IMG/VR virus record: IMGVR_UViG_3300037193_001958
Span: 1-20,695 of that record
Length of the DNA: 20,695 bases
Strand: one strand, 5' to 3'
DNA from: a virus
Each line of letters begins with the position of its first letter. Position 1 is the first letter of the stretch. This document shows positions 1 through 5,998 of the stretch, piece by piece. A program made the translations under genes and the position numbers. A model generated the notes under the pieces. The model was not told the origin of the DNA, ran no database searches, and was given only the letters and a program-made list of their open reading frames with translations.

Positions 1-12
1 TTATAATTATGG

Positions 13-339
13 TCAATGGTTATGCTGGTTAGCATCGCCGCGCCAAAACGCCCGGCTACTCCATACGCCATGCACAGCACACCGGTACTCAATGCCCCGG
101 TAATCCTGCTTGCCGCAGGTCTTACAAATCGGCATCCGCACACTGCCATCACGCATACCCCGGTCAAACATACCGCCTTGCGGCACCCTCACCTCATACT
201 CGTGTTCCCTGCCTACCTTTCCCTTACACCAACGGGTGGTATTCTTGCGGGGGCGACGTATAGGCTGCTCTGGTGGCAATGCTAGCTTTCGGGTTAGGTT
301 GCTTGCCCGCCAATTATCGCGGTTTTCTTTAAGTCTCAT
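13..339 (-). CDS. Small Cys/His protein, function unknown
   Basis: A basic 108-residue protein that I do not recognise by name. Visible are C38 and H46 in a WCKGKVGREH segment, and a second group C72-x2-C75 ... C87-x2-H90 that could bind one zinc ion; a structural zinc-binding role is inference. There is no Shine-Dalgarno sequence. The ATG lies 7 bases after a TACAAT hexamer, so the mRNA should be essentially leaderless, as for several other minus-strand genes here. It is transcribed away from tRNA operon 1, whose terminator overlaps its promoter. The gene is complete, with a TGA stop at the left edge of the window. Confidence 0.7.
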   Translation of the reverse strand: MRLKENRDNWRASNLTRKLALPPEQPIRRPRKNTTRWCKGKVGREHEYEVRVPQGGMFDRGMRDGSVRMPICKTCGKQDYRGIEYRCAVHGVWSSRAFWRGDANQHNH

Positions 340-346
340 AGTAATA

Positions 347-360
347 ATTGTACATGTAAA
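347..360 (-). promoter_or_regulatory. Promoter core of the Cys/His protein gene
   Basis: On the minus strand this reads TTTACATGTACAAT, with TACAAT as the -10 element and the start codon 7 bases downstream. The same 14 bases occur on the plus strand at 7875-7888 in a promoter with a good -35, which supports the assignment. The -35 here is weak. Confidence 0.55.
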
Positions 361-381
361 AAGCCCCTATTGCGAGGCTTT
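357..381 (-). terminator. Intrinsic terminator of tRNA operon 1
   Basis: On the minus strand AAAGCC and GGCTTT form a 6-bp stem around a 10-base loop, followed by a run of T. It lies 3' of the last tRNA gene and overlaps the promoter of the next gene, so it separates the two units. Confidence 0.65.
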
Positions 382-399
382 ATTACCATAGTTGCCGGG

Positions 400-491
400 C
401 TGGCTTGAGAGCTTGCCAGACCATCGTTGCGGCGTCGGCCGCATTACTTAAACTGCTGCGCCGCGTTGCGCGGTGCGAGTGGCGACCACTC
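400..491 (-). other. Four consecutive hairpins, trailer of tRNA operon 1
   Basis: Four perfect or near-perfect hairpins follow each other: GAGTGG/CCACTC (477-491), an 8-bp stem around CCGCG/CGCGG (458-476), GCGGC/GCCGC (429-442) and CTGGC/GCCAG (400-419). They lie between the last tRNA gene and the terminator, so they would be transcribed as the 3' trailer of the operon. I see no tRNA signature in them. A 25-codon frame (367-444, minus) runs through part of it but has no ribosome-binding site. A stable small RNA is possible. Confidence 0.5.
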
Positions 492-511
492 ACTATAATT
501 ATAACGCTATA

Positions 512-586
512 TGGTTTGCACGCTAGGATTTGAACCCAGATTACCAGTGCCAAAAACTGGTGTCCTACCTGTTAGACGACACGCAA
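512..586 (-). tRNA. tRNA-Gln (anticodon TTG)
   Basis: Last tRNA of operon 1. Acceptor TTGCGTG/CGTGCAA with discriminator A and encoded CCA. The anticodon stem ACCAGT/ACTGGT encloses loop TTTTGGC, anticodon TTG, reading CAA. The elbow is canonical: GG in the D-loop and T-loop TTCAAAT. Confidence 0.93.
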
Positions 587-589
587 ATA

Positions 590-677
590 TGGCGGTAGGC
601 GGAGGACACGAACCCCACAGAGTTACCCCTGCGCTTCGCTTAGCGGGCGAGCCTGGTGCTTCACCAGTTCACCTACC
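590..677 (-). tRNA. tRNA-Ser (anticodon GCT), degenerate
   Basis: Acceptor GGTAGGT/GCCTACC with encoded CCA, and a long variable arm (CAGGG/CTCTG) as in serine tRNAs. The anticodon loop reads CCGCTAA, so GCT, but position 33 is C where U is nearly universal. The T-loop TTCGTGT lacks A58, and the D-arm is hard to fold in the usual way. The 5' part is also the 3' end of an open reading frame (623-790). It may be real but constrained by that overlap, or decaying. Confidence 0.7.
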
Positions 678-790
678 GTATCGTGCACCACCACAGTGTC
701 CAGTATTTTGGACATGACTGCGTGGATGCAAGCATCAGTTCTTTCAAAAAGCTCATCGACTTGCGCCTCAAGCTCCATGTTAGTACCCAT
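623..790 (-). CDS. 55-residue acidic protein overlapping tRNA-Ser
   Basis: Unrecognised small protein inside tRNA operon 1. Its sequence is protein-like and probably helical (for example MELEAQVDELFERTDA), with no transmembrane segment or metal motif. The start used is the ATG 6 bases after a TATAAT hexamer, giving a leaderless mRNA; a second in-frame ATG lies four codons later. The last 18 codons overlap the 5' half of the tRNA-Ser(GCT) gene on the same strand, so translation and tRNA maturation would compete on one transcript. It lies 17 bases after the CCA end of tRNA-Gln(CTG). Function unknown. Confidence 0.5.
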   Translation of the reverse strand: MGTNMELEAQVDELFERTDACIHAVMSKILDTVVVHDTVGELVKHQARPLSEAQG

Positions 791-807
791 GCACTTATTA
801 TATAAAA

Positions 808-883
808 TGGCTTGCGGGGTAGGACTTGAACCTACGATTACTTGGGCCAGAACCAAGCGCCTTACCAACTTGGCCACCCGCAA
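808..883 (-). tRNA. tRNA-Gln (anticodon CTG)
   Basis: Acceptor TTGCGGG/CCCGCAA, discriminator G, encoded CCA. Stem CTTGG/CCAAG with loop TTCTGGC gives CTG, reading CAG. Canonical elbow (GTTGGT in the D-loop, TTCAAGT in the T-loop). With the TTG isoacceptor it covers both glutamine codons, both of which occur in the operon 1 leader ORF. Confidence 0.93.
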
Positions 884-888
884 ATAAA

Positions 889-964
889 TGGCTCCCAGGG
901 TGGGGCTTGAACCCACAACCTCCGCGTTAACAGCGCGTTGCTCCACCGATTGAGCTACCCGGAA
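889..964 (-). tRNA. tRNA-Asn (anticodon GTT)
   Basis: Acceptor TTCCGGG/CCTGGGA with G-T wobbles, discriminator G, encoded CCA. Anticodon loop CTGTTAA gives GTT; the first anticodon-stem pair is A-G. Canonical GG D-loop and TTCAAGC T-loop. Confidence 0.92.
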
Positions 965-969
965 TTAAA

Positions 970-1044
970 TGGCGTCCATGACGGGTGCTGCCCCCGCTAC
1001 TTCTCCCGTGACAGGGGAGTACTCTGCTGTTGAGTTACACGGAC
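970..1044 (-). tRNA. tRNA-Asp (anticodon GTC), variant elbow
   Basis: Stem CTCCC/GGGAG with loop CTGTCAC gives GTC. Acceptor GTCCGTG/CATGGAC, discriminator G, encoded CCA. The D-loop AACAGCA has AG in place of GG, and the T-loop is GGCAGCA in place of TTCRANY, so U55 is replaced by G55. All stems are intact, so this is not simple decay. Confidence 0.88.
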
Positions 1045-1047
1045 ATT

Positions 1048-1122
1048 TGGGGTGACTGACGGGAATTGAACCCGCATATCGAGCGCCACAAGCTCGCGTT
1101 CTGCCATTGAACTACAGCCAAC
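1048..1122 (-). tRNA. tRNA-His (anticodon GTG)
   Basis: Stem CGAGC/GCTCG with loop TTGTGGC gives GTG. The discriminator is C, opposite an encoded extra 5' G (the G-1:C73 pair typical of histidine tRNA). The next acceptor pair is a T-C mismatch. Canonical elbow and encoded CCA. Confidence 0.92.
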
Positions 1123-1127
1123 ATGAC

Positions 1128-1211
1128 TGGCGGTAGGCTAAGGACTCGCACCCTAAACCCTTGCGGGCCACAATTTTCAAGATTGCTTCCTCATCTAGCC
1201 GGATGCCTACC
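1128..1211 (-). tRNA. tRNA-Ser (anticodon TGA), variant elbow
   Basis: Acceptor GGTAGGC/GCCTACC, discriminator G, encoded CCA. Loop CTTGAAA gives TGA, and a long variable arm fits serine. The T-loop TGCGAGT has G55, and the D-loop GGCTAGATGA has TAG where GG is expected. Confidence 0.88.
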
Positions 1212-1222
1212 AATTGTTAATG

Positions 1223-1310
1223 TGGTACCCCACGCCTGATTTGCACAGGCACACCACCTAAGTGGCAACGGGGCTTAAACCCGTCGTGTCTACTGTTCCA
1301 CCAGTGGGGC
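1223..1310 (-). tRNA. tRNA-Leu (anticodon TAA), variant elbow
   Basis: Acceptor GCCCCAC/GTGGGGT, discriminator A, encoded CCA. Stem ACGGG/CCCGT with loop TTTAAGC gives TAA; long variable arm. The D-loop GAACAGTAGA differs from the common leucine form GAACTGGTAGA by loss of GG, and the T-loop is TGCAAAT (G55). Confidence 0.9.
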
Positions 1311-1315
1311 ATGTT

Positions 1316-1400
1316 TGGTACACAAGGAGAGACTCGAACTCTCACGTCATAAGACACTAGTTCCTAAGACTAGCGCGGCTACCAGTTACGCCACTTGTGC
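1316..1400 (-). tRNA. tRNA-Leu (anticodon TAG)
   Basis: Acceptor GCACAAG/CTTGTGT, encoded CCA. Stem CTAGT/ACTAG with loop CTTAGGA gives TAG. Canonical elbow (AACTGGTAG in the D-loop, TTCGAGT in the T-loop), a useful contrast to the two variant leucine tRNAs beside it. Its 5' half overlaps the end of the HNH gene. Confidence 0.92.
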
Positions 1401-1716
1401 TTATATAGTTTTTAAACTGTTTCCTGTCCTGCTCATAGGTTTTTATCATATGGCAGTTAGCACACAACAATTGTACGTCAGTAGAGGCCAGAATACCTTT
1501 CACCACTTGAAATGCGTTATAGGCACCATTTCGGTTTAACGGCCTGTCCATAGCCGGTATGATGTGGTCAATCTGTAGCACCCGGTAATCGTCGGTATAG
1601 CAATTGACACATTTGCCGCCCAACATTTCGATTGCTTTTAGCCTTGTGGCTAACCTATTTGCCCGACTCCACTCCCGCGTGACTTGCCGTTGTTTGTCTT
1701 TGTCCTTATAGGGCAT
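1357..1716 (-). CDS. HNH endonuclease within the tRNA array
   Basis: A 119-residue HNH-family nuclease. The motif is C36-x2-C39, then IDHIIP with H51, then C85-x2-C88-H89, the usual zinc-stabilised HNH (beta-beta-alpha-metal) fold that cuts DNA with a divalent metal. The N-terminus is rich in Lys and Arg (KDKDKQRQ), as in many small phage HNH proteins. It sits between two leucine tRNA genes and is the only nuclease in the array, which suggests a free-standing homing endonuclease; that role is inference. The last 14 codons overlap tRNA-Leu(TAG) on the same strand, so insertion has left the tRNA intact. No Shine-Dalgarno sequence is visible. Confidence 0.88.
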   Translation of the reverse strand: MPYKDKDKQRQVTREWSRANRLATRLKAIEMLGGKCVNCYTDDYRVLQIDHIIPAMDRPLNRNGAYNAFQVVKGILASTDVQLLCANCHMIKTYEQDRKQFKNYISTSGVTGSRASLRN

Positions 1717-1746
1717 ACGGACAGTTTACAGCTCATTGTTAATGTA

Positions 1747-1832
1747 TGGTACTCCCGGCAGGAGTCGCACCTGCACGCCCGTTAGGACACCGACTTTTGA
1801 GGCCAGCGCGGCTACTGTTACGCCACGGGAGC
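1747..1832 (-). tRNA. tRNA-Leu (anticodon CAA), variant elbow
   Basis: Acceptor GCTCCCG/CGGGAGT, discriminator A, encoded CCA. Stem CTGGC/GTCGG with loop CTCAAAA gives CAA. The D-loop has AACAGTAG and the T-loop is TGCGACT, so it carries the A18/G55 variant elbow. Confidence 0.9.
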
Positions 1833-1837
1833 TTACT

Positions 1838-1912
1838 TGGAGGCACGTATCAGATTTGCACTGATGTAAAACGGGGTTGCAATCCGTTGCGTAGCTGCTC
1901 CGCCAACGCGCC
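1838..1912 (-). tRNA. tRNA-Cys (anticodon GCA), variant elbow
   Basis: Acceptor GGCGCGT/ACGTGCC, discriminator T, encoded CCA. Loop TTGCAAC gives GCA, with an A-C mismatch closing the loop. D-loop AGCAGCTA and T-loop TGCAAAT: variant elbow. A U discriminator is typical of cysteine tRNA. Confidence 0.88.
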
Positions 1913-1924
1913 CATATTGTTAAT

Positions 1925-2011
1925 TGGTGACCCGCCTAGGTAATGCTCCTAGCCAGCCGATGCGGCACTGGATTTACAGTCCAGGCGTCGTCTTTAGACG
2001 TATACCGGGCC
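1925..2011 (-). tRNA. tRNA-Tyr (anticodon GTA), variant elbow
   Basis: Stem CTGGA/TCCAG with loop CTGTAAA gives GTA, and a long variable arm fits bacterial tyrosine tRNA. The T-loop is AGCATTA (G55). The D-arm is short (CGTC/GACG around TAAA) and has no GG. Acceptor pair 7-66 is G-G. Encoded CCA. Confidence 0.85.
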
Positions 2012-2014
2012 TTA

Positions 2015-2091
2015 TGGTGCCTTGGGTGGGAACCGCCCCCACGACCTCCGGCTTTTCAGACCGGCGCTCTGACTAACTGAGCTACCTTGGC
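2015..2091 (-). tRNA. tRNA-Phe (anticodon GAA), variant elbow
   Basis: Anticodon loop CTGAAAA gives GAA. The D-loop AGTTAGTCA differs from the usual AGTTGGTCA by one base, G18 to A18, and the T-loop is GGCGGTT (G55). The acceptor arms GCCAAGG and CCAAGGC pair except for two adjacent A-A mismatches at 4-69 and 5-68. Encoded CCA. Confidence 0.85.
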
Positions 2092-2094
2092 GTA

Positions 2095-2165
2095 TGGCGT
2101 GACACCTTGAGTCGAACAAGTCCTGACGGCCCATGCCGCCCGTGCTACCGTTACACTAAAGTCAC
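2095..2165 (-). tRNA. tRNA-like gene, anticodon not assignable
   Basis: A 71-base tRNA-like gene with a canonical elbow (AACGGTA, TTCGACT) and encoded CCA. The anticodon arm is abnormal: the best stem GGCGG/CCGTC leaves a 6-base loop CATGGG with no U33. A 3-bp alternative would expose GGG (Pro). Acceptor pair 6-67 is T-T. It may be a decayed or specialised tRNA. Confidence 0.6.
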
Positions 2166-2170
2166 ATATA

Positions 2171-2247
2171 TGGTCAGGGCACCGGGATTTGAACCCAGTC
2201 CTCATGCTCCCAAAGCAAACGTGCTGGCCGTTAAACACTATGCCCTG
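2171..2247 (-). tRNA. tRNA-Pro (anticodon TGG)
   Basis: Acceptor CAGGGCA/TGCCCTG, discriminator A, encoded CCA. Loop TTTGGGA gives TGG, with one mismatch in the anticodon stem. Canonical elbow (AACGGCC, TTCAAAT). Confidence 0.9.
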
Positions 2248-2259
2248 ACGGTTTGTTAA

Positions 2260-2330
2260 TGGCAGGGGTACCAGGTAATGCTCCCGGCTACATGGTTTTG
2301 GAGACTATGCTGCGCCTTGCGCCTACCCCT
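2260..2330 (-). tRNA. tRNA-Trp (anticodon CCA), variant elbow, first of operon 1
   Basis: Acceptor AGGGGTA/TACCCCT, discriminator G, encoded CCA. Loop CTCCAAA gives CCA. The T-loop AGCATTA has G55, and the D-arm is minimal (GCGC-AAG-GCGC) without GG. Its 5' end is only 6 bases after the attenuator-like terminator. Confidence 0.87.
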
Positions 2331-2336
2331 GTATGC

Positions 2337-2362
2337 AAAAAACCGCCTGCGGTTGCGGCGGT
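2337..2362 (-). terminator. Intrinsic terminator (candidate attenuator) before operon 1 tRNAs
   Basis: On the minus strand ACCGCC and GGCGGT pair around a 9-base loop and are followed by six T. It lies between the operon 1 promoter and the first tRNA gene, so RNA polymerase must pass it to make the tRNAs. Its 5' arm shares two bases with the stem at 2361-2412. Confidence 0.8.
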
Positions 2363-2412
2363 AGTTGGTGTCACCCATAGGGTTTTGTTGCTATAAAACT
2401 GCGACCAACTAC
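2361..2412 (-). ncRNA. Branched RNA between leader ORF and terminator
   Basis: On the minus strand GTAGTTGGT and ACCAACTAC form a 9-bp outer stem enclosing two hairpins, GTTTT/AAAAC and ACCC-TAT-GGGT. The stop codon of the leader ORF falls in the 5' strand of the outer stem. That strand can alternatively pair with ACCAAC inside the leader ORF (its Asn-Gln codons). Mutually exclusive pairing just before a terminator is the layout of attenuators. It would be part of a transcript of about 140 nt ending at the terminator. Confidence 0.6.
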
Positions 2413-2474
2413 GCGCCTACCCAATAATCATTGAGGCTAAACGGCTGCGGCTGTTGGTTACATAAATGCTTCAT
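2409..2474 (-). CDS. Leader peptide of tRNA operon 1
   Basis: A 21-codon ORF. Residues 3-18 are HLCNQQPQPFSLNDYW: all 16 belong to the 11 amino acids whose tRNAs follow in this operon, and all 11 are present. Only K2 and the last three residues (V, G, A) fall outside the set. Both glutamine codons, CAA and CAG, are used, matching the two tRNA-Gln genes. The ATG is 9 bases after the -10 hexamer TACAAT, so the transcript should start about 3 nt upstream and lack a Shine-Dalgarno sequence; the operon 2 leader ORF has the same spacing. The TAG stop lies in the branched RNA that precedes the terminator. I infer a leader peptide whose translation senses charging of these tRNAs. It might instead be a chance ORF, but its composition argues against that. 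Confidence 0.75.
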   Translation of the reverse strand: MKHLCNQQPQPFSLNDYWVGA

Positions 2475-2483
2475 AGCCATTTT

Positions 2484-2512
2484 ATTGTAGCATACAGAGT
2501 TTACGTTGTAAA
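2484..2512 (-). promoter_or_regulatory. Promoter of tRNA operon 1
   Basis: On the minus strand TTTACA (2507-2512), a 17-base spacer ending in TGC, then TACAAT (2484-2489). The extended -10 TGCTACAAT is also found in the operon 2 promoter. Predicted start near 2477. Confidence 0.8.
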
Positions 2513-2520
2513 CATTTACA
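2499..2520. promoter_or_regulatory. Overlapping palindromes at the operon 1 -35
   Basis: Two perfect inverted repeats overlap: GTTTAC-GTT-GTAAAC (2499-2513) and TGTAAA-CA-TTTACA (2507-2520). They cover the -35 element of the operon 1 promoter, so a repressor or activator site is plausible. Confidence 0.5.
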
Positions 2521-2536
2521 GGAAACATGATACCAC

Positions 2537-2575
2537 GCCCCACAAGTCTGCGCTGTGCGCCAGCGCATTGTGGGC
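2537..2575. repeat. Long two-part hairpin upstream of the 33-residue peptide
   Basis: GCCC(C)ACAA pairs with TTGTGGGC, and inside it TGCGCT pairs with AGCGCA around a 7-base loop. No T-run follows on either strand, so it is not an obvious terminator. It lies between the divergent operon 1 promoter and a plus-strand small ORF. Confidence 0.55.
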
Positions 2576-2639
2576 CTCCTGTAAAGAGGTGTAGGCTCAA
2601 GACAGCGCACATAACCCGGCGGCACGATAGGAGTTGTAA

Positions 2640-2741
2640 ATGAAGTACAGCACACCACGGCAACGTCGCAAATTTCTAAACCGGATGGAGCGTAAGTATT
2701 TTAAAAAGATGCAGGATACGAATAGGCCGCTAAGCTTTTGA
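2640..2741 (+). CDS. 33-residue basic peptide
   Basis: A very basic small peptide (start MKYSTPRQRRKF) with ten or so Arg and Lys residues and no hydrophobic segment. A good ribosome-binding site, GGAG, lies 6 bases before the ATG, which is why I call it. It is the only plus-strand gene among minus-strand ones and is preceded by a strong hairpin. The charge suggests nucleic-acid binding, but nothing more specific can be read. No family recognised. Confidence 0.45.
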   Translation: MKYSTPRQRRKFLNRMERKYFKKMQDTNRPLSF

Positions 2742-2759
2742 TTACCCCACTATGAGAAA

Positions 2760-2804
2760 GCACGACTAGCAACCTAAGTATTGACCTAAGCCGCCGGGTC
2801 GTGC
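2760..2804 (-). repeat. Hairpin with 7-bp stem, possible weak terminator
   Basis: GCACGAC/GTCGTGC encloses a 31-base loop that contains ACCTAAG twice. On the minus strand TTTC follows, too short for a good terminator. A TATAAT lies just upstream at 2812-2817, so the hairpin could also sit at the 5' end of a short RNA. Confidence 0.35.
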
Positions 2805-2817
2805 GCTATCCATTATA

Positions 2818-2988
2818 CTAGCTTTCCTTGGACGCTGCTTGCGCCGCAGCGCTACTTTCTATATTGGCGTACAGCGACATGAGCGCTACCCACAGTACGC
2901 TATCCTTAAGCCATACAAGTGTTACCGGTATCATGGCTATCCAAAACCACATAAGGTATTTGTGCCTGTTTTTAAGTAGCCGTTGCAT
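2818..2988 (-). CDS. Small membrane protein
   Basis: A 56-residue protein with a basic N-terminus (MQRLLKNRHKY) followed by one long hydrophobic stretch, or a hairpin of two short ones (about residues 12-43, with a charged KD near residues 28-29), and a polar Ala/Ser-rich tail. It probably lies in the cytoplasmic membrane. The start chosen is the ATG 6 bases after TACAAT, again leaderless; an upstream in-frame ATG would have no promoter or ribosome-binding support. Function unknown. Confidence 0.6.
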   Translation of the reverse strand: MQRLLKNRHKYLMWFWIAMIPVTLVWLKDSVLWVALMSLYANIESSAAAQAASKES

Positions 2989-2994
2989 ACTACC

Positions 2995-3000
2995 ATTGTA
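2995..3000 (-). promoter_or_regulatory. -10 element of the small membrane protein gene
   Basis: TACAAT on the minus strand, 6 bases before the ATG. No convincing -35. It fits the repeated arrangement of a -10 box placed directly before a start codon. Confidence 0.4.
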
Positions 3001-3062
3001 ACCAAAAATGCCCCTGCCGCCGTACGGTACGGCCAGGAGCACTCTTGCATATTCACGCGTGT

Positions 3063-3093
3063 ACTATGTCAGCTAAGTGACAGCTGTCATAGT
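3063..3093. promoter_or_regulatory. Inverted repeat overlapping a minus-strand promoter
   Basis: ACTATGTCAGCT (3063-3074) and AGCTGTCATAGT (3082-3093) are inverted copies with one mismatch, and the centre contains the perfect palindrome TGACAGCTGTCA (3078-3089). It overlaps a minus-strand -10-like TACTAT (3089-3094) preceded by TTTACT at 3111-3116 with a 16-base spacer. This looks like an operator. Confidence 0.5.
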
Positions 3094-3125
3094 AGCACAC
3101 TTTTATTATAAGTAAAGTTATAATT

Positions 3126-3269
3126 TTACAGCAGCTCCCAAAAGTGCTTATTGATAAGGTAGTCAGCATAGCATGGTGAATGTAGCAAGCCACACTTGTC
3201 GCAGGGTTTATTTTGACAAGCATTGCACTTGCAATTAGCTATTTCTGGTGGTAAATCAGGGGTACTCAT
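3126..3269 (-). CDS. Cysteine-rich mini-protein after tRNA operon 2
   Basis: A 47-residue protein with six cysteines, in the pattern CKCNACQNKPCDKCG (residues 13-27) and a further Cys at 33 near a His, probably a zinc-binding knuckle. The ATG is only 4 bases after the CCA end of tRNA-Glu(TTC). It must be cotranscribed with operon 2, and tRNA 3'-end processing would release an mRNA with a 4-base leader. There is no Shine-Dalgarno sequence. Function unknown; a role in nucleic-acid binding is only a guess. Confidence 0.55.
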   Translation of the reverse strand: MSTPDLPPEIANCKCNACQNKPCDKCGLLHSPCYADYLINKHFWELL

Positions 3270-3273
3270 AACA

Positions 3274-3348
3274 TGGTCAGCGCACCGGGTGTCCATCCCG
3301 GCCCTCTAGCGTGAAAGGCTAGCGACTTCGGCGGTTGTCTATGCGCTG
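3274..3348 (-). tRNA. tRNA-Glu (anticodon TTC), swapped 19-56 pair
   Basis: Acceptor CAGCGCA/TGCGCTG, encoded CCA. Stem CTAGC/GCTAG with loop CTTTCAC gives TTC. The T-loop is ATGGACA, with G at position 56 instead of C. The D-loop AACCGCCGAA lacks GG but offers GC, so G19-C56 appears to be replaced by C19-G56. Confidence 0.87.
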
Positions 3349-3353
3349 TTAAT

Positions 3354-3430
3354 TGGTGGGCCTGGTAGGATTTGAACCTACGGTCGTTGGCTTAAGAGGC
3401 CACTGCTTTGCCAGGCTAAGCTACAAGCCC
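3354..3430 (-). tRNA. tRNA-Lys (anticodon CTT)
   Basis: Acceptor GGGCTTG/CAGGCCC, encoded CCA. Loop CTCTTAA gives CTT. Canonical elbow (GCCTGGCAA, TTCAAAT). Confidence 0.93.
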
Positions 3431-3434
3431 ATCA

Positions 3435-3512
3435 TGGTACACCGTGACGGATTTGAACCGACGATTTCCTGGATGAGAACCAGGGGCCTTAACCGGACTT
3501 GGCCAACGGTGC
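3435..3512 (-). tRNA. tRNA-Glu (anticodon CTC)
   Basis: Acceptor GCACCGT/ACGGTGT, encoded CCA. Stem CCTGG/CCAGG with loop TTCTCAT gives CTC. Canonical elbow, unlike its TTC isoacceptor. Confidence 0.92.
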
Positions 3513-3603
3513 GTACTGGCTGCCTGCTTTCGGGAGCTAGCTAGGGTTGGCTGCCGTAGTACACGCCCTAGTCGTCACTGCTCACTATGGGTGCCGAGGT
3601 TAC
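3513..3603 (-). other. Unexplained spacer in tRNA operon 2
   Basis: The longest gap in operon 2 without a recognisable tRNA. It contains CTAGGG/CCCTAG (3541-3546 and 3566-3571) separated by 19 bases, and two copies of TGGCTGCC. I could not fold it as a tRNA and see no supported gene. Confidence 0.4.
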
Positions 3604-3678
3604 TGGTGGAGCGCCAGAGAATTGAACTCTGCCTAATTGCTTGCAAAGCAACTGTGCCGCCGACAACACTTGCGTCCC
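3604..3678 (-). tRNA. tRNA-Ala (anticodon TGC)
   Basis: Acceptor GGGACGC/GCGCTCC contains the G3-U70 wobble that identifies alanine tRNA, plus one A-C mismatch. Stem GTTGC/GCAAT with loop TTTGCAA gives TGC. Canonical elbow, encoded CCA. Confidence 0.9.
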
Positions 3679-3681
3679 ATA

Positions 3682-3752
3682 TGGTACACCCGCTAGGAAT
3701 TGAACCTAGACTTTCAGCTTAGAACACCTTAGCCCATCCGTGGGACGGGTGC
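3682..3752 (-). tRNA. tRNA-like gene, possibly tRNA-Arg (TCT)
   Basis: A 71-base gene with perfect acceptor GCACCCG/CGGGTGT, T-arm CTAGG-TTCAATT-CCTAG and encoded CCA. The D-arm is minimal (CCCA-CGGA-TGGG). The anticodon arm is ambiguous: GCTAA/TAAGC would give TGT without U33, while a 3-bp stem exposes GTTCTAA, a well-formed loop with anticodon TCT (Arg). Arginine fits the AGG codon in the operon leader and the absence of another AGR reader. Confidence 0.6.
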
Positions 3753-3757
3753 TTGTA

Positions 3758-3833
3758 TGGTACAGCTGGCAGGATTTGAACCTGCGACCTACAGCTTCGC
3801 AAGCTGGTGCTCTATCCGCTGAGCTACAACTGT
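3758..3833 (-). tRNA. tRNA-Arg (anticodon GCG)
   Basis: Acceptor ACAGTTG/CAGCTGT, encoded CCA. Loop TTGCGAA gives GCG. D-loop AGCGGATA and T-loop TTCAAAT are canonical. An unmodified GCG anticodon is less usual than ACG for bacterial CGN reading. Confidence 0.92.
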
Positions 3834-3836
3834 ATA

Positions 3837-3912
3837 TGGTGCGACTTGCCGGACTTGAACCGACGTCACCTACTTGGCAAGCAGGCATACTGGCCGACTG
3901 TACTAAAGTCGC
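3837..3912 (-). tRNA. tRNA-Gly (anticodon GCC)
   Basis: Perfect acceptor GCGACTT/AAGTCGC, encoded CCA. Stem CCTGC/GTAGG with loop TTGCCAA gives GCC. Canonical elbow. Confidence 0.93.
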
Positions 3913-3915
3913 ATA

Positions 3916-3991
3916 TGGTGCGGCCACCGTGGACTTGAACCCGGAGCTTCGCCTTGGAAGGGCGATGGGTTTCCATTAACCCCACAGCCGC
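3916..3991 (-). tRNA. tRNA-Gly (anticodon TCC)
   Basis: Acceptor GCGGCTG/TGGCCGC, encoded CCA. Loop CTTCCAA gives TCC. Canonical GG and TTCAAGT, but the T-stem CCGGG/CC(A)CGG contains a bulged A. Confidence 0.9.
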
Positions 3992-3994
3992 ATA

Positions 3995-4069
3995 TGGTTC
4001 CCCGCCGACGTACTGCCCGCCGTTCTCCAATTTACAAAATTGGTGCATCACTATTAATGCTTACAGGGC
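3995..4069 (-). tRNA. tRNA-Thr (anticodon TGT), variant elbow
   Basis: Stem CCAAT/ATTGG with loop TTTGTAA gives TGT. The D-loop TAATAGTG has AG, and the T-loop is GGCAGTA (G55). Acceptor GCCCTGT/GCGGGGA has a G-A mismatch at 1-72. Encoded CCA. Confidence 0.87.
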
Positions 4070-4080
4070 TAATTGTTAAC

Positions 4081-4157
4081 TGGTACCGCCGGTAGGAATT
4101 GCACCCACGCCGCCCGGTTCCGAAGACCGGCGCTCTAATCTGCTGAGCTACGGCGGT
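4081..4157 (-). tRNA. tRNA-Arg (anticodon TCG), variant elbow
   Basis: Perfect acceptor ACCGCCG/CGGCGGT, encoded CCA. Stem CCGGT/ACCGG with loop CTTCGGA gives TCG. The D-loop AGCAGATTA against AGCGGATA in tRNA-Arg(GCG) shows the G18 to A18 change, paired with T-loop TGCAATT. Confidence 0.92.
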
Positions 4158-4162
4158 GTAAA

Positions 4163-4240
4163 TGGTGGCAGGGGTGGGATTTGAACCCACGGCCGCGACC
4201 TTATGAGAGTCGCCATCTAGCCATCTGATTGTACCCTGCT
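4163..4240 (-). tRNA. tRNA-Met (anticodon CAT)
   Basis: Stem CGACT/GGTCG with loop CTCATAA gives CAT. Canonical elbow, encoded CCA. Acceptor pair 1-72 is an A-C mismatch, as in initiators, but the three G-C pairs of an initiator anticodon stem are absent, so an elongator (or lysidine-type Ile) is more likely. Confidence 0.88.
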
Positions 4241-4241
4241 A

Positions 4242-4318
4242 TGGTACCGCCTGTAGGATTTGAACCTACCACCTACTGCGTGTAAAACAGTTGCTCTAGC
4301 CGAATGAGCTAAGGCGGT
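4242..4318 (-). tRNA. tRNA-Val (anticodon TAC)
   Basis: Perfect acceptor ACCGCCT/AGGCGGT, encoded CCA. Stem ACTGT/GCAGT with loop TTTACAC gives TAC. Canonical elbow. Confidence 0.93.
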
Positions 4319-4391
4319 GTGAGTGCTGATTTCTTTTTAGGGGAATTACAGCTTAAGACCCTCGCGTAATTAACTAGGCGTTCGCGCAGCC
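4319..4391 (-). other. Spacer between tRNA-Ile(TAT) and tRNA-Val with a possible peptide frame
   Basis: No tRNA fits. On the minus strand a frame opens with CTG two bases after the CCA of tRNA-Ile(TAT), reads LRERLVNYARVLSCN and so on, and stops with TAG inside tRNA-Val. There is no ATG, GTG or TTG start, so it is a weak candidate. Confidence 0.25.
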
Positions 4392-4465
4392 TGGTCGGCC
4401 TACCTGGTATCGCGCCAGGGTCAGCAGTGTATAAGACTGCCGCTCTGCTTTTGAGCTATAGGCCA
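4392..4465 (-). tRNA. tRNA-Ile (anticodon TAT), variant elbow
   Basis: Acceptor TGGCCTA/TAGGCCG, encoded CCA. Stem GCAGT/ACTGC with loop CTTATAC gives TAT, reading AUA. D-loop AAAAGCA and T-loop CGCGATA (G55): variant elbow. Confidence 0.88.
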
Positions 4466-4468
4466 GTA

Positions 4469-4543
4469 TGGTTGGCTATGTAGGTGCTGCCCCTATCGTT
4501 GCCGCTGTATCAGAGCGGTGTTCTACTGTTGAACTAATAGCCA
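4469..4543 (-). tRNA. tRNA-Ile (anticodon GAT), variant elbow
   Basis: Perfect acceptor TGGCTAT/ATAGCCA, encoded CCA. Stem CCGCT/AGCGG with loop CTGATAC gives GAT. D-loop AACAGTA and T-loop GGCAGCA, the same T-loop as tRNA-Asp. Confidence 0.9.
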
Positions 4544-4551
4544 GTAAGGTG

Positions 4552-4628
4552 TGGTGGGCCTGCCCGGAGTTGAACCGGGGTATCTTCGGCTTAAAAGGCC
4601 GCTGCTTTGCCTGCTTAGCTACAGGCCC
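4552..4628 (-). tRNA. tRNA-Lys (anticodon TTT), first of operon 2
   Basis: Acceptor GGGCCTG/CAGGCCC, encoded CCA. Loop CTTTTAA gives TTT. Canonical elbow. The leader ORF stops at the TAG formed by positions 8-10 of this tRNA. Confidence 0.93.
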
Positions 4629-4774
4629 GCGCCGTAAACGTCGGCGCTACGTTTGGTGTTTTTGTTTTCCCGGATTGTCAATGTGCGGTTGGTGGCTATG
4701 CGCTCCATGCGCTTGCTACCGACGGTGGTTTCCCAACGCCCGGTGGCCACTTCAATTCGCTTAATCCTTGTCAT
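4619..4774 (-). CDS. Leader ORF of tRNA operon 2
   Basis: A 51-codon ORF that starts 9 bases after the -10 hexamer, the same spacing as in operon 1, and so is leaderless. Residues 1-13 are MTRIKRIEVATGR: all belong to the nine amino acids whose tRNAs follow in this operon (Glu, Lys, Ala, Arg, Gly, Thr, Met, Val, Ile), and all nine are present. Over the whole ORF 41 of 51 residues belong to that set. It stops at a TAG inside the first tRNA gene, tRNA-Lys(TTT), overlapping it by 10 bases. The 3' part contains two mutually exclusive hairpins. I infer a charging-sensing leader peptide; it might also be a small basic protein in its own right. Confidence 0.65.
   Translation of the reverse strand: MTRIKRIEVATGRWETTVGSKRMERIATNRTLTIRENKNTKRSADVYGAGL
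4629..4654 (-). promoter_or_regulatory. Mutually exclusive hairpins before the first tRNA of operon 2
   Basis: On the minus strand AAACGT-AGCGCCG-ACGTTT and GCGCCG-ACGTTTA-CGGCGC overlap, so only one can form. Both lie inside the leader ORF, directly 5' of tRNA-Lys(TTT). There is no T-run, so any control would not be simple intrinsic termination; tRNA processing or folding is an alternative target. Confidence 0.5.
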
Positions 4775-4783
4775 AGTAACCCC

Positions 4784-4813
4784 ATTGTAGCATATGGCGA
4801 CTAACTATGGCAA
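4784..4813 (-). promoter_or_regulatory. Promoter of tRNA operon 2
   Basis: On the minus strand TTGCCA (4808-4813), an 18-base spacer ending in TGC, then TACAAT (4784-4789). The extended -10 TGCTACAAT and the 9-base distance to the leader ATG match operon 1. Predicted start near 4777. Confidence 0.8.
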
Positions 4814-4815
4814 AT

Positions 4816-4876
4816 AAAAAAGCCTCCCAGGTAGGATATACCAAAACACAGAGGAGTTGATGACCCAGGAGGCTTT
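4816..4876 (-). terminator. Terminator insulating the operon 2 promoter
   Basis: A 14-bp stem (arms 4819-4832 and 4863-4876) followed on the minus strand by six T. Two positions pair as G-U in minus-strand RNA but would be A-C mismatches in plus-strand RNA, so the hairpin appears kept for the minus transcript. It lies just upstream of the operon 2 promoter and blocks read-through. Confidence 0.6.
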
Positions 4877-4933
4877 GCCACATACTACAGTATTTGGTAC
4901 CGAAATGCTAGCCTGTTGTGGATAAAAAAGTAG

Positions 4934-4961
4934 TTGCAACGCTTGCATAAACATGTATAAT
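4934..4961 (+). promoter_or_regulatory. Promoter of the recombination gene cluster
   Basis: TTGCAA (4934-4939), a 16-base spacer and TATAAT (4956-4961), about 30 bases before the first gene, which has the ribosome-binding sequence AAAGGATATACC. Confidence 0.75.
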
Positions 4962-4990
4962 AAAAACACAATTAAGGTAAAGGATATACC

Positions 4991-5206
4991 ATGCCCAGCA
5001 GCGAGCAGATTACCGCCGTACAAAACTTACTGGACGCCATCCACAATGGCACACCAGCAAGCCAGCTACAGCGGCTTGGCCTTAACAGCATTAGCTTACG
5101 GGTCAAGCATATTGCCAACCGCACTCAGGTAGATGAGCAGGTGGTACGGCAAATTGCGGTAGACTACGGATACATTATTTACGGGGTGGGCGACGAAAGC
5201 GAGTAG
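4991..5206 (+). CDS. 71-residue protein, function unknown
   Basis: First gene of the plus-strand early operon, immediately before the recombination genes. It is small and acidic-to-neutral, with no transmembrane segment. The central part (about residues 15-60, including LRVKHIANRTQVDEQVVRQI) could form a small helical, helix-turn-helix-like domain, but this is not a firm match to any family. The start is set by AAAGGATATACC directly before the ATG, the same ribosome-binding sequence as at 7906-7917. Translation is probably coupled to the recT-like gene 9 bases downstream. Confidence 0.75.
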   Translation: MPSSEQITAVQNLLDAIHNGTPASQLQRLGLNSISLRVKHIANRTQVDEQVVRQIAVDYGYIIYGVGDESE

Positions 5207-5215
5207 GATATGACC

Positions 5216-5998
5216 ATGCAATTAGAAAAGACCCTTAAAAACAAACTTACAGCCAAAAACGTACCGGAGGCAGACATTGACCGCTTCCTTAGCTACGTTA
5301 ACAGCGCCCGCCGTGATGAGGAGGGCAAGGAGGAACGCAAGCGCCCGGTTAGCCGCAACGATGCCGATAACCTGTACAGCCTGTTTGTAAAGTTCCGCAA
5401 CCTTGGGCTTATCATTGACGGCACCAACGTGGTTATTACCGGGCGCAACATGGCCATGGTTACTTACCATGGGTATAAAAATAAGGTTAAGCAGACTTAC
5501 CCGGACGCTACTTTTGATGTACAGCTGGTGCGCGGCGAGGACACCTTTAAGGTTAGCAAGCGTGACGGCAAGGTAAGTTACGAGCACGATATTACCAACC
5601 CGTTTGGGGATGATGAGATTAGGGGCGCGTACTGCGTAATTACTATTGGCGATAAGGATTACTTTGAGGCCCTTAACCCAAGCGACTTTACTAAGATGAA
5701 AGAGGCCAGCAAGCAAAAGTACTTGTGGGGTGAGTGGGCCAGCGAATTTTGGCTAAAGTCGGTTATTAAGCGGGCGTGCAAACGGCACTTTTACGATGTG
5801 CCTGGCATGGCTGATATTGATAAGGTGGACAATGACGACTATGGCTTGGCTGAGCGGGTTGACCTACCGGACGCCACCCGTGAGGCCATTGAGGCTGCGG
5901 TAACGGTCGAGGAGCTGCAAAACATTATGGACAGCCTTAGCCCGGAGTATAAGCAGGCTGCCCAGCCACTAGTTGAGGAGCGGTTTGCAGCACTATGA
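5216..5998 (+). CDS. recT: RecT-family single-strand annealing protein
   Basis: A protein of about 260 residues resembling phage RecT/Bet annealing proteins, which coat single-stranded DNA and anneal it to complementary strands during recombination-dependent replication. Family-like features are the MVTYHGYKNKVKQTYPDA segment, the VQLVRGEDTFKV and GAYCVITIGDKDYFEAL strands, and the WGEWASEFWLKSVIKRACKR helix that normally closes the core. The exonuclease that usually partners RecT follows with a 4-base overlap. An ATG at 5210 is in frame, but I chose the second at 5216 because GGATATGACC then sits at the spacing used by the other plus-strand genes. The acidic C-terminal tail after about residue 200 is also common in the family. 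Confidence 0.85.
   Translation: MQLEKTLKNKLTAKNVPEADIDRFLSYVNSARRDEEGKEERKRPVSRNDADNLYSLFVKFRNLGLIIDGTNVVITGRNMAMVTYHGYKNKVKQTYPDATFDVQLVRGEDTFKVSKRDGKVSYEHDITNPFGDDEIRGAYCVITIGDKDYFEALNPSDFTKMKEASKQKYLWGEWASEFWLKSVIKRACKRHFYDVPGMADIDKVDNDDYGLAERVDLPDATREAIEAAVTVEELQNIMDSLSPEYKQAAQPLVEERFAAL

Follow-up and report, generated by a model that had tools for sequence, protein, structure and literature searches.

A predicted leaderless reading frame that enters the first gene, tRNA-Lys, of a phage tRNA operon, and its possible coupling to RNase P access

A tRNA operon of this phage (operon 2) opens with a short reading frame that enters its first tRNA gene, and we tentatively propose that translation of this frame is coupled to the access of RNase P to tRNA-Lys. 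The passive packing of a small gene against a tRNA is the main rival explanation and is nearly as likely. The roles suggested for phage tRNAs are the support of translation and a defense against cleavage of host tRNAs, and to our knowledge it is poorly understood how phages time the making of their own tRNAs. If the proposal is true, the phage uses ribosome speed as a gauge to meter its supply of tRNAs, with translation-controlled maturation beside an attenuator-like second leader. It would also be a case from a bacterial virus in which a message and a tRNA compete for the same nucleotides.

The virus record analyzed here (the window, 20,695 bases) carries tail, endolysin and RecE/RecT genes. 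A large tRNA array lies on the minus strand, with 23 genes called by ARAGORN and several more found through Rfam at a relaxed threshold. The features of operon 2 are as follows.

4816-4876, minus: terminator-like stem, AAAGCCTCCTGGGT / ACCTGGGAGGCTTT, about 14 pairs and then TTTTTT (read from the sequence; a truncated version was folded)
4784-4813, minus: operon 2 promoter, TTGCCA (-35), 18-nt spacer, extended -10 TGcTACAAT (10 of 12 matches, TG present)
4619-4774, minus: predicted leaderless 51-codon ORF, MTRIKRIEVATGRWETTVGSKRMERIATNRTLTIRENKNTKRSADVYGAGL, with its stop TAG at tRNA-Lys nt 8-10
4652-4654, minus: Lys codon AAA-41, the sole Lys codon among the A-site positions (41-45) where a ribosome is predicted to unfold hairpin B and uncover the RNase P site
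4636-4654, minus: hairpin A, weak and transient only, AAACGT (4654-4649) / ACGTTT (4641-4636), -3.4 kcal/mol
4629-4647, minus: hairpin B, strong, GCGCCG (4647-4642) / CGGCGC (4634-4629), -10.2 kcal/mol, pairing nt -1 to -6 of the tRNA-Lys leader
4552-4628, minus: tRNA-Lys(UUU), the first tRNA in operon 2
3007-3045 (approximate limits), minus: terminator-like hairpin with TTTTT, where operon 2 probably ends (-28.8 kcal/mol when 2995-3060 is folded)

The preliminary description held that operons 1 and 2 share a -10 element and the 9-base distance from it to the ATG, and both are borne out. The element TGCTACAAT occurs exactly twice in the window, on the minus strand in each case (4792-4784 and 2492-2484), and an ATG stands 9 nt downstream of each copy, at 4774 in operon 2 and at 2474 in operon 1. 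Both copies lie within sigma-70-type promoter matches of 10/12 with an extended -10 (TTGCCA-18-TACAAT and TTTACA-17-TACAAT). The two rank among the top three by score of the seven matches in 1-5300, a number of matches that is near chance (5.4 +/- 2.5 expected). From the promoter match, the operon 2 transcript is predicted to start at about 4777, 2-3 nt 5' of the ATG at 4774, and no other in-frame ATG, GTG or TTG is found between the upstream in-frame TAG and 4774. The leaderless start suggested earlier is thus retained as a prediction. There is no Shine-Dalgarno sequence at the start of the ORF, where the upstream sequence is TGCTACAATGGGGTTACT with GGGG between the -10 and the predicted start; AGG- or GAGG-type sites precede most other genes of the phage.

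A terminator-like stem (4876-4816) lies just 5' of the promoter; on a reading of the sequence only, it would shield operon 2 from minus-strand transcription arriving from upstream and makes a longer leader from that source unlikely. Its loop is about 30 nt, which is why it was missing from the list returned by our promoter/terminator scan. The same scan found no intrinsic terminator in the operon 2 leader, in line with the earlier reading. In the region 4805-4961 a terminator-like stem stands between the divergent promoters, with a GAGGAG-ATG and a 21-codon ORF in its plus-strand loop. An Rfam Phe_leader match at 4813-4952 (minus) was below threshold (24.3 versus 55 bits).

The leader ORF is probably translated, as its codon usage resembles that of the other genes of the phage. 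Scored against the usage in the phage's own larger genes, it has a log-likelihood of +11.5 bits, which 1.1% of off-frame 50-codon windows reach and which corresponds to the 10th percentile among true 50-codon gene windows. When only synonymous choices were scored, the ORF gave a z of 3.1, compared with 1.3-5.0 for real genes and 1.5 +/- 1.0 for false ORFs, 2 of 28 of which reached 3.1. The plus-strand ORF that overlaps it has a non-coding score (-27.7 bits). On these scores the translated leader ORF of the preliminary description stands as a prediction. A single-sequence AlphaFold model of the 51-residue product has three beta strands at a mean pLDDT of 67, and a Foldseek search with this low-confidence model gave no significant match.

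The ORF does run into tRNA-Lys and end at the tRNA's own TAG, as had been claimed: its stop codon, 4621-4619, is nt 8-10 of the tRNA (4628-4552). TAG, TAA or TGA is frequent at nt 8-10 of tRNAs, and every frame that stays open and arrives in the matching phase would therefore end there. Since other frames in the array likewise stop at tRNA nt 8-10, the position of the stop is by itself unremarkable. A second protein/tRNA overlap is present in the same array, where an HNH endonuclease gene (1716-1357, minus; PHROG E 7e-13) extends 44 nt into tRNA-Leu(UAG) (1400-1316, minus) and has its stop at nt 42-44 of that tRNA.

Two hairpins, A and B, precede the tRNA, and they exclude each other as described earlier, their arms being interlocked in the sequence. 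They are the only interlocked perfect 6+6 bp pairs in the window, where 0.03 would be expected, and when the ORF was re-coded synonymously 0.36% of the versions contained such a pair. The interlock is unusual, not extreme. The claim that they form a switch fails at equilibrium because their stabilities are not comparable. Hairpin A is weaker than hairpin B by about 7 kcal/mol (6.8), and in the full leader fold it has an occupancy of about 0.0001, compared with 0.98-1.0 for the pairs of B. During transcription A forms first, with a probability of about 0.65 when only A is complete, and it is favored for a few nt until B is completed. An H-type pseudoknot of A and B was rejected as a full structure, since its connecting loops, at 0-1 nt, could not bridge 6 bp; a version reduced to 3 bp may form. 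Control through the folding of tRNA-Lys, also raised in the preliminary description, is unsupported because folds constrained to A or to B gave the same cloverleaf.

Hairpin B ends at nt -1 of tRNA-Lys. Stem-loops that adjoin the cleavage site in the 5' leaders of pre-tRNAs are anti-determinants of bacterial RNase P (PMC9433436, PMC10731613). Of the 25 array tRNAs scored, tRNA-Lys has the lowest mean unpaired probability over leader nt -1 to -6, at 0.00. An equally stable hairpin ending at -1 was found in 2.4% of synonymous re-codings. Two results count against a regulatory role: hairpin B is matched in stability by 5% of ordinary coding 32-mers, and the 4552-4777 transcript, folded in full, shows no unusual stability relative to shuffles (z -0.91).

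We also folded the RNA ahead of a translating ribosome, whose edge was assumed to lie 13 nt 3' of the first base in the A site. The tRNA-Lys leader stayed closed with the A site at any codon through 39, had a mean unpaired probability of 0.44 at codon 40 and of 0.59-1.0 at codons 41-45, and was then covered. RNase P access, one of the control points proposed earlier, is consequently a plausible one, with the least accessible leader of the 25 tRNAs predicted to open for a ribosome at codons 41-45. AAA occurs at codons 38 and 41. By chance, the last 14 codons would contain two AAA with a probability of 0.02 at the AAA frequency of the phage, and two Lys by either codon with a probability of 0.16. 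This placement of Lys codons was found post hoc and is suggestive at best as a signal.

In the mechanism that we tentatively favor, RNA would start 2-3 nt 5' of the ATG and the 51-codon ORF would be read leaderlessly, 10 nt into tRNA-Lys. With no ribosome near, hairpin B would pair leader nt -1 to -6, and RNase P would be slowed and tRNA-Lys poorly matured. A ribosome with its A site at codons 41-45 would remove the 5' arm of hairpin B and expose the cleavage site, whereas one that reached the stop would occupy the tRNA's own 5' strand and block RNase P. Cleavage between 4629 and 4628 would fall within codon 49 (GC before the cut, G after it) and leave a nonstop message. A cut would remove the stop of the ORF, and a single transcript should therefore yield a terminated peptide or tRNA-Lys, not both cleanly; the phage may put this competition to regulatory use. 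The promoter match, the ORF, the overlap and hairpin B with its location are taken here from the sequence, and the dominance of hairpin B, the occlusion of the leader and the opening window from computed folds. The actual start site, translation, slower cutting by RNase P and any physiological signal are what we infer, and each p-value behind the mechanism is modest and post hoc.

A regulatory role for operon 2 is more plausible because the leader of operon 1 shows the logic of a trp-type attenuator. That leader (2512-2253, minus) has the same promoter and start geometry. Its ORF, MKHLCNQQPQPFSLNDYWVGA, has 21 codons, is predicted to be leaderless and carries a Trp codon four codons ahead of its stop; the first tRNA of the operon appears to be tRNA-Trp(CCA), as judged by eye and from a predicted cloverleaf, and was not called by ARAGORN. 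Three mutually exclusive structures are predicted (1:2, the 2:3 antiterminator and the terminator), and the choice among them is set by ribosome position. The terminator forms in the free RNA (P 1.0), the antiterminator when the first 18 to 60 nt are occupied (P above 0.99), and the terminator again with a ribosome at the stop (P 0.999). When the leader was shuffled 400 times with dinucleotides preserved, this three-state logic was never reproduced. These folds give the leader of operon 1 the appearance of a trp-type transcription attenuator.

An extension of the mechanism, which we consider improbable, is that the operon 2 leader senses when charged tRNA-Lys(UUU) is lost, for instance to anticodon nucleases of the host. 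Starvation of a ribosome at AAA-41 would then unmask the RNase P site and turn on the maturation of a substitute tRNA-Lys. In a parallel response of operon 1, a stall at the Trp codon would antiterminate the operon led by tRNA-Trp.

The closest competitor to coupling is ordinary packing, and we hold it to be possible to almost the same degree. The tRNA operon would simply have the small gene as its first cistron, the overlap would reflect a compact genome, hairpin B would be a by-product of coding, and there would be no regulation beyond the unavoidable competition with RNase P. The gene-like codon usage and the possible small beta fold agree with this, as the ORF could simply be a gene, and so do the HNH gene that also overlaps a tRNA of the array, the common occurrence of TAG at tRNA nt 8-10 and the roughly 5% of coding 32-mers that match hairpin B in stability. 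Packing does not, however, account for the predicted leaderless start at a dedicated promoter, an arrangement that recurs in the attenuator-like operon 1, or for the fact that the most occluding leader of the array falls exactly at tRNA-Lys. The ORF may instead be untranslated, a frame left open by chance in a pre-tRNA leader. The missing Shine-Dalgarno sequence, unusual among the genes of this phage, and the homologue searches, which found none for the ORF, point that way. We find this unlikely in view of the gene-like codon usage, the ATG at the predicted 5' end in both operons and the non-coding score of the overlapping plus-strand ORF.

Rho, which the preliminary description also named, is another improbable agent of control. 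Translation would cover a C-rich stretch at about 4725-4650, and on its failure Rho would load and end transcription before the tRNA array. The best 78-nt window of the leader is C-rich and G-poor (C minus G fraction 0.128, reached in 3.7% of coding windows) and the leader lacks an intrinsic terminator; part of the C-rich stretch is nevertheless paired in the predicted fold, and C/G bias is a weak predictor. A two-state RNA switch, in which A and B exchange under a signal and alter tRNA folding, is very improbable. Its arms are mutually exclusive and A forms first in transcription, yet A has almost no occupancy once B is transcribed, given its 6.8 kcal/mol deficit, and the cloverleaf is the same with either hairpin.

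Among known systems, selB-selC offers a close parallel to the coupling that we propose. In several lineages tRNA-Sec is nested in, or partly overlaps, the 3' end of the SelB gene, and tRNA processing was proposed to leave a nonstop mRNA, with protein and tRNA as alternatives (PMC8124441). In both systems a protein frame enters the tRNA and has its stop inside it (in selB-selC, in the partial cases). The present case differs in being from a phage, with a predicted leaderless ORF of 51 codons, a 10-nt overlap, a tRNA-Lys that heads an array and a hairpin abutting the cleavage site; it was also seen once, whereas the selB-selC overlap occurs in several lineages. Pre-tRNAs with structured leaders, which are slow substrates of RNase P (PMC9433436, PMC10731613), likewise have a stem-loop adjoining the cleavage site. 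Here, unlike in those, the leader doubles as the last part of what is probably a coding sequence, and ribosomes could remodel it.

Operon 2 resembles trp-type attenuators in having a short ORF at the start of the transcript, before the regulated genes, where the position of the ribosome could alter a downstream hairpin, and possibly in the placement of Lys codon AAA-41 near that hairpin and ahead of a tRNA-Lys gene. In contrast to them, it has neither an intrinsic terminator (no stem with a T-run in 4629-4777) nor an antiterminator, and no such pair is set by the ribosome; there is only B versus A, with B dominant. Its putative target is RNase P cleavage, while that of the trp type is transcription, a type to which operon 1 of this phage is a far better fit. 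The trn operon of Anabaena is a long, regulated array of accessory tRNAs that is repressed by TrcR, a DNA-binding ribbon-helix-helix repressor (PMC10272220). The phage array is similarly long and accessory, but the 51-residue product has no detected relation to TrcR. A T-box leader was rejected, as no T-box Rfam match was found in 1-5000 of the window up to an E of 10. For the operon 2 leader, the most fitting description is a protein-gene/tRNA overlap in a variant form that has the flavor of a leader ORF. A limited literature search found no phage tRNA operons under attenuation.

Searches for relatives gave little. With the 51-residue ORF, tblastn against phages returned only one match (E 9), scans of IMG/VR and GTDB genomes found no homologue, there was no Pfam or PHROGs match, and comparison with the loci collected produced only a chance match of 24 residues. 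Relatives sought through RecT, RecE, the tape measure, the endolysin and the 6878 protein were single-gene relatives only, and those bearing RecT had 0 or 1 tRNA each, no tRNA array and no match to the leader ORF. At the DNA level the leader plus tRNA-Lys had a single match, MT835949, which was set aside as a lone tRNA-Lys with the leader unmatched. At least 119 stretches of viral contigs carried the pattern TGCTACAAT-N7-CTATG, and in none of the matches listed did a tRNA array follow a leader ORF; one of those listed (L044) has a tRNA-Pro directly at the pattern.

Elsewhere in the array, tRNA-like genes missed by ARAGORN lie at 593-678 (minus) and also at 973-1044, 3685-3752 and 4472-4543. 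The gene at 593-678 matched the Rfam tRNA-Sec model below its cut-off (34.6 versus 47 bits) and is possibly a long-arm tRNA-Ser. A small cysteine-rich ORF, MSTPDLPPEIANCKCNACQNKPCDKCGLLHSPCYADYLINKHFWELL (3269-3126, minus), starts 4 nt past the 3' end of tRNA-Glu, and its codon usage differs from that of the other genes of the phage.
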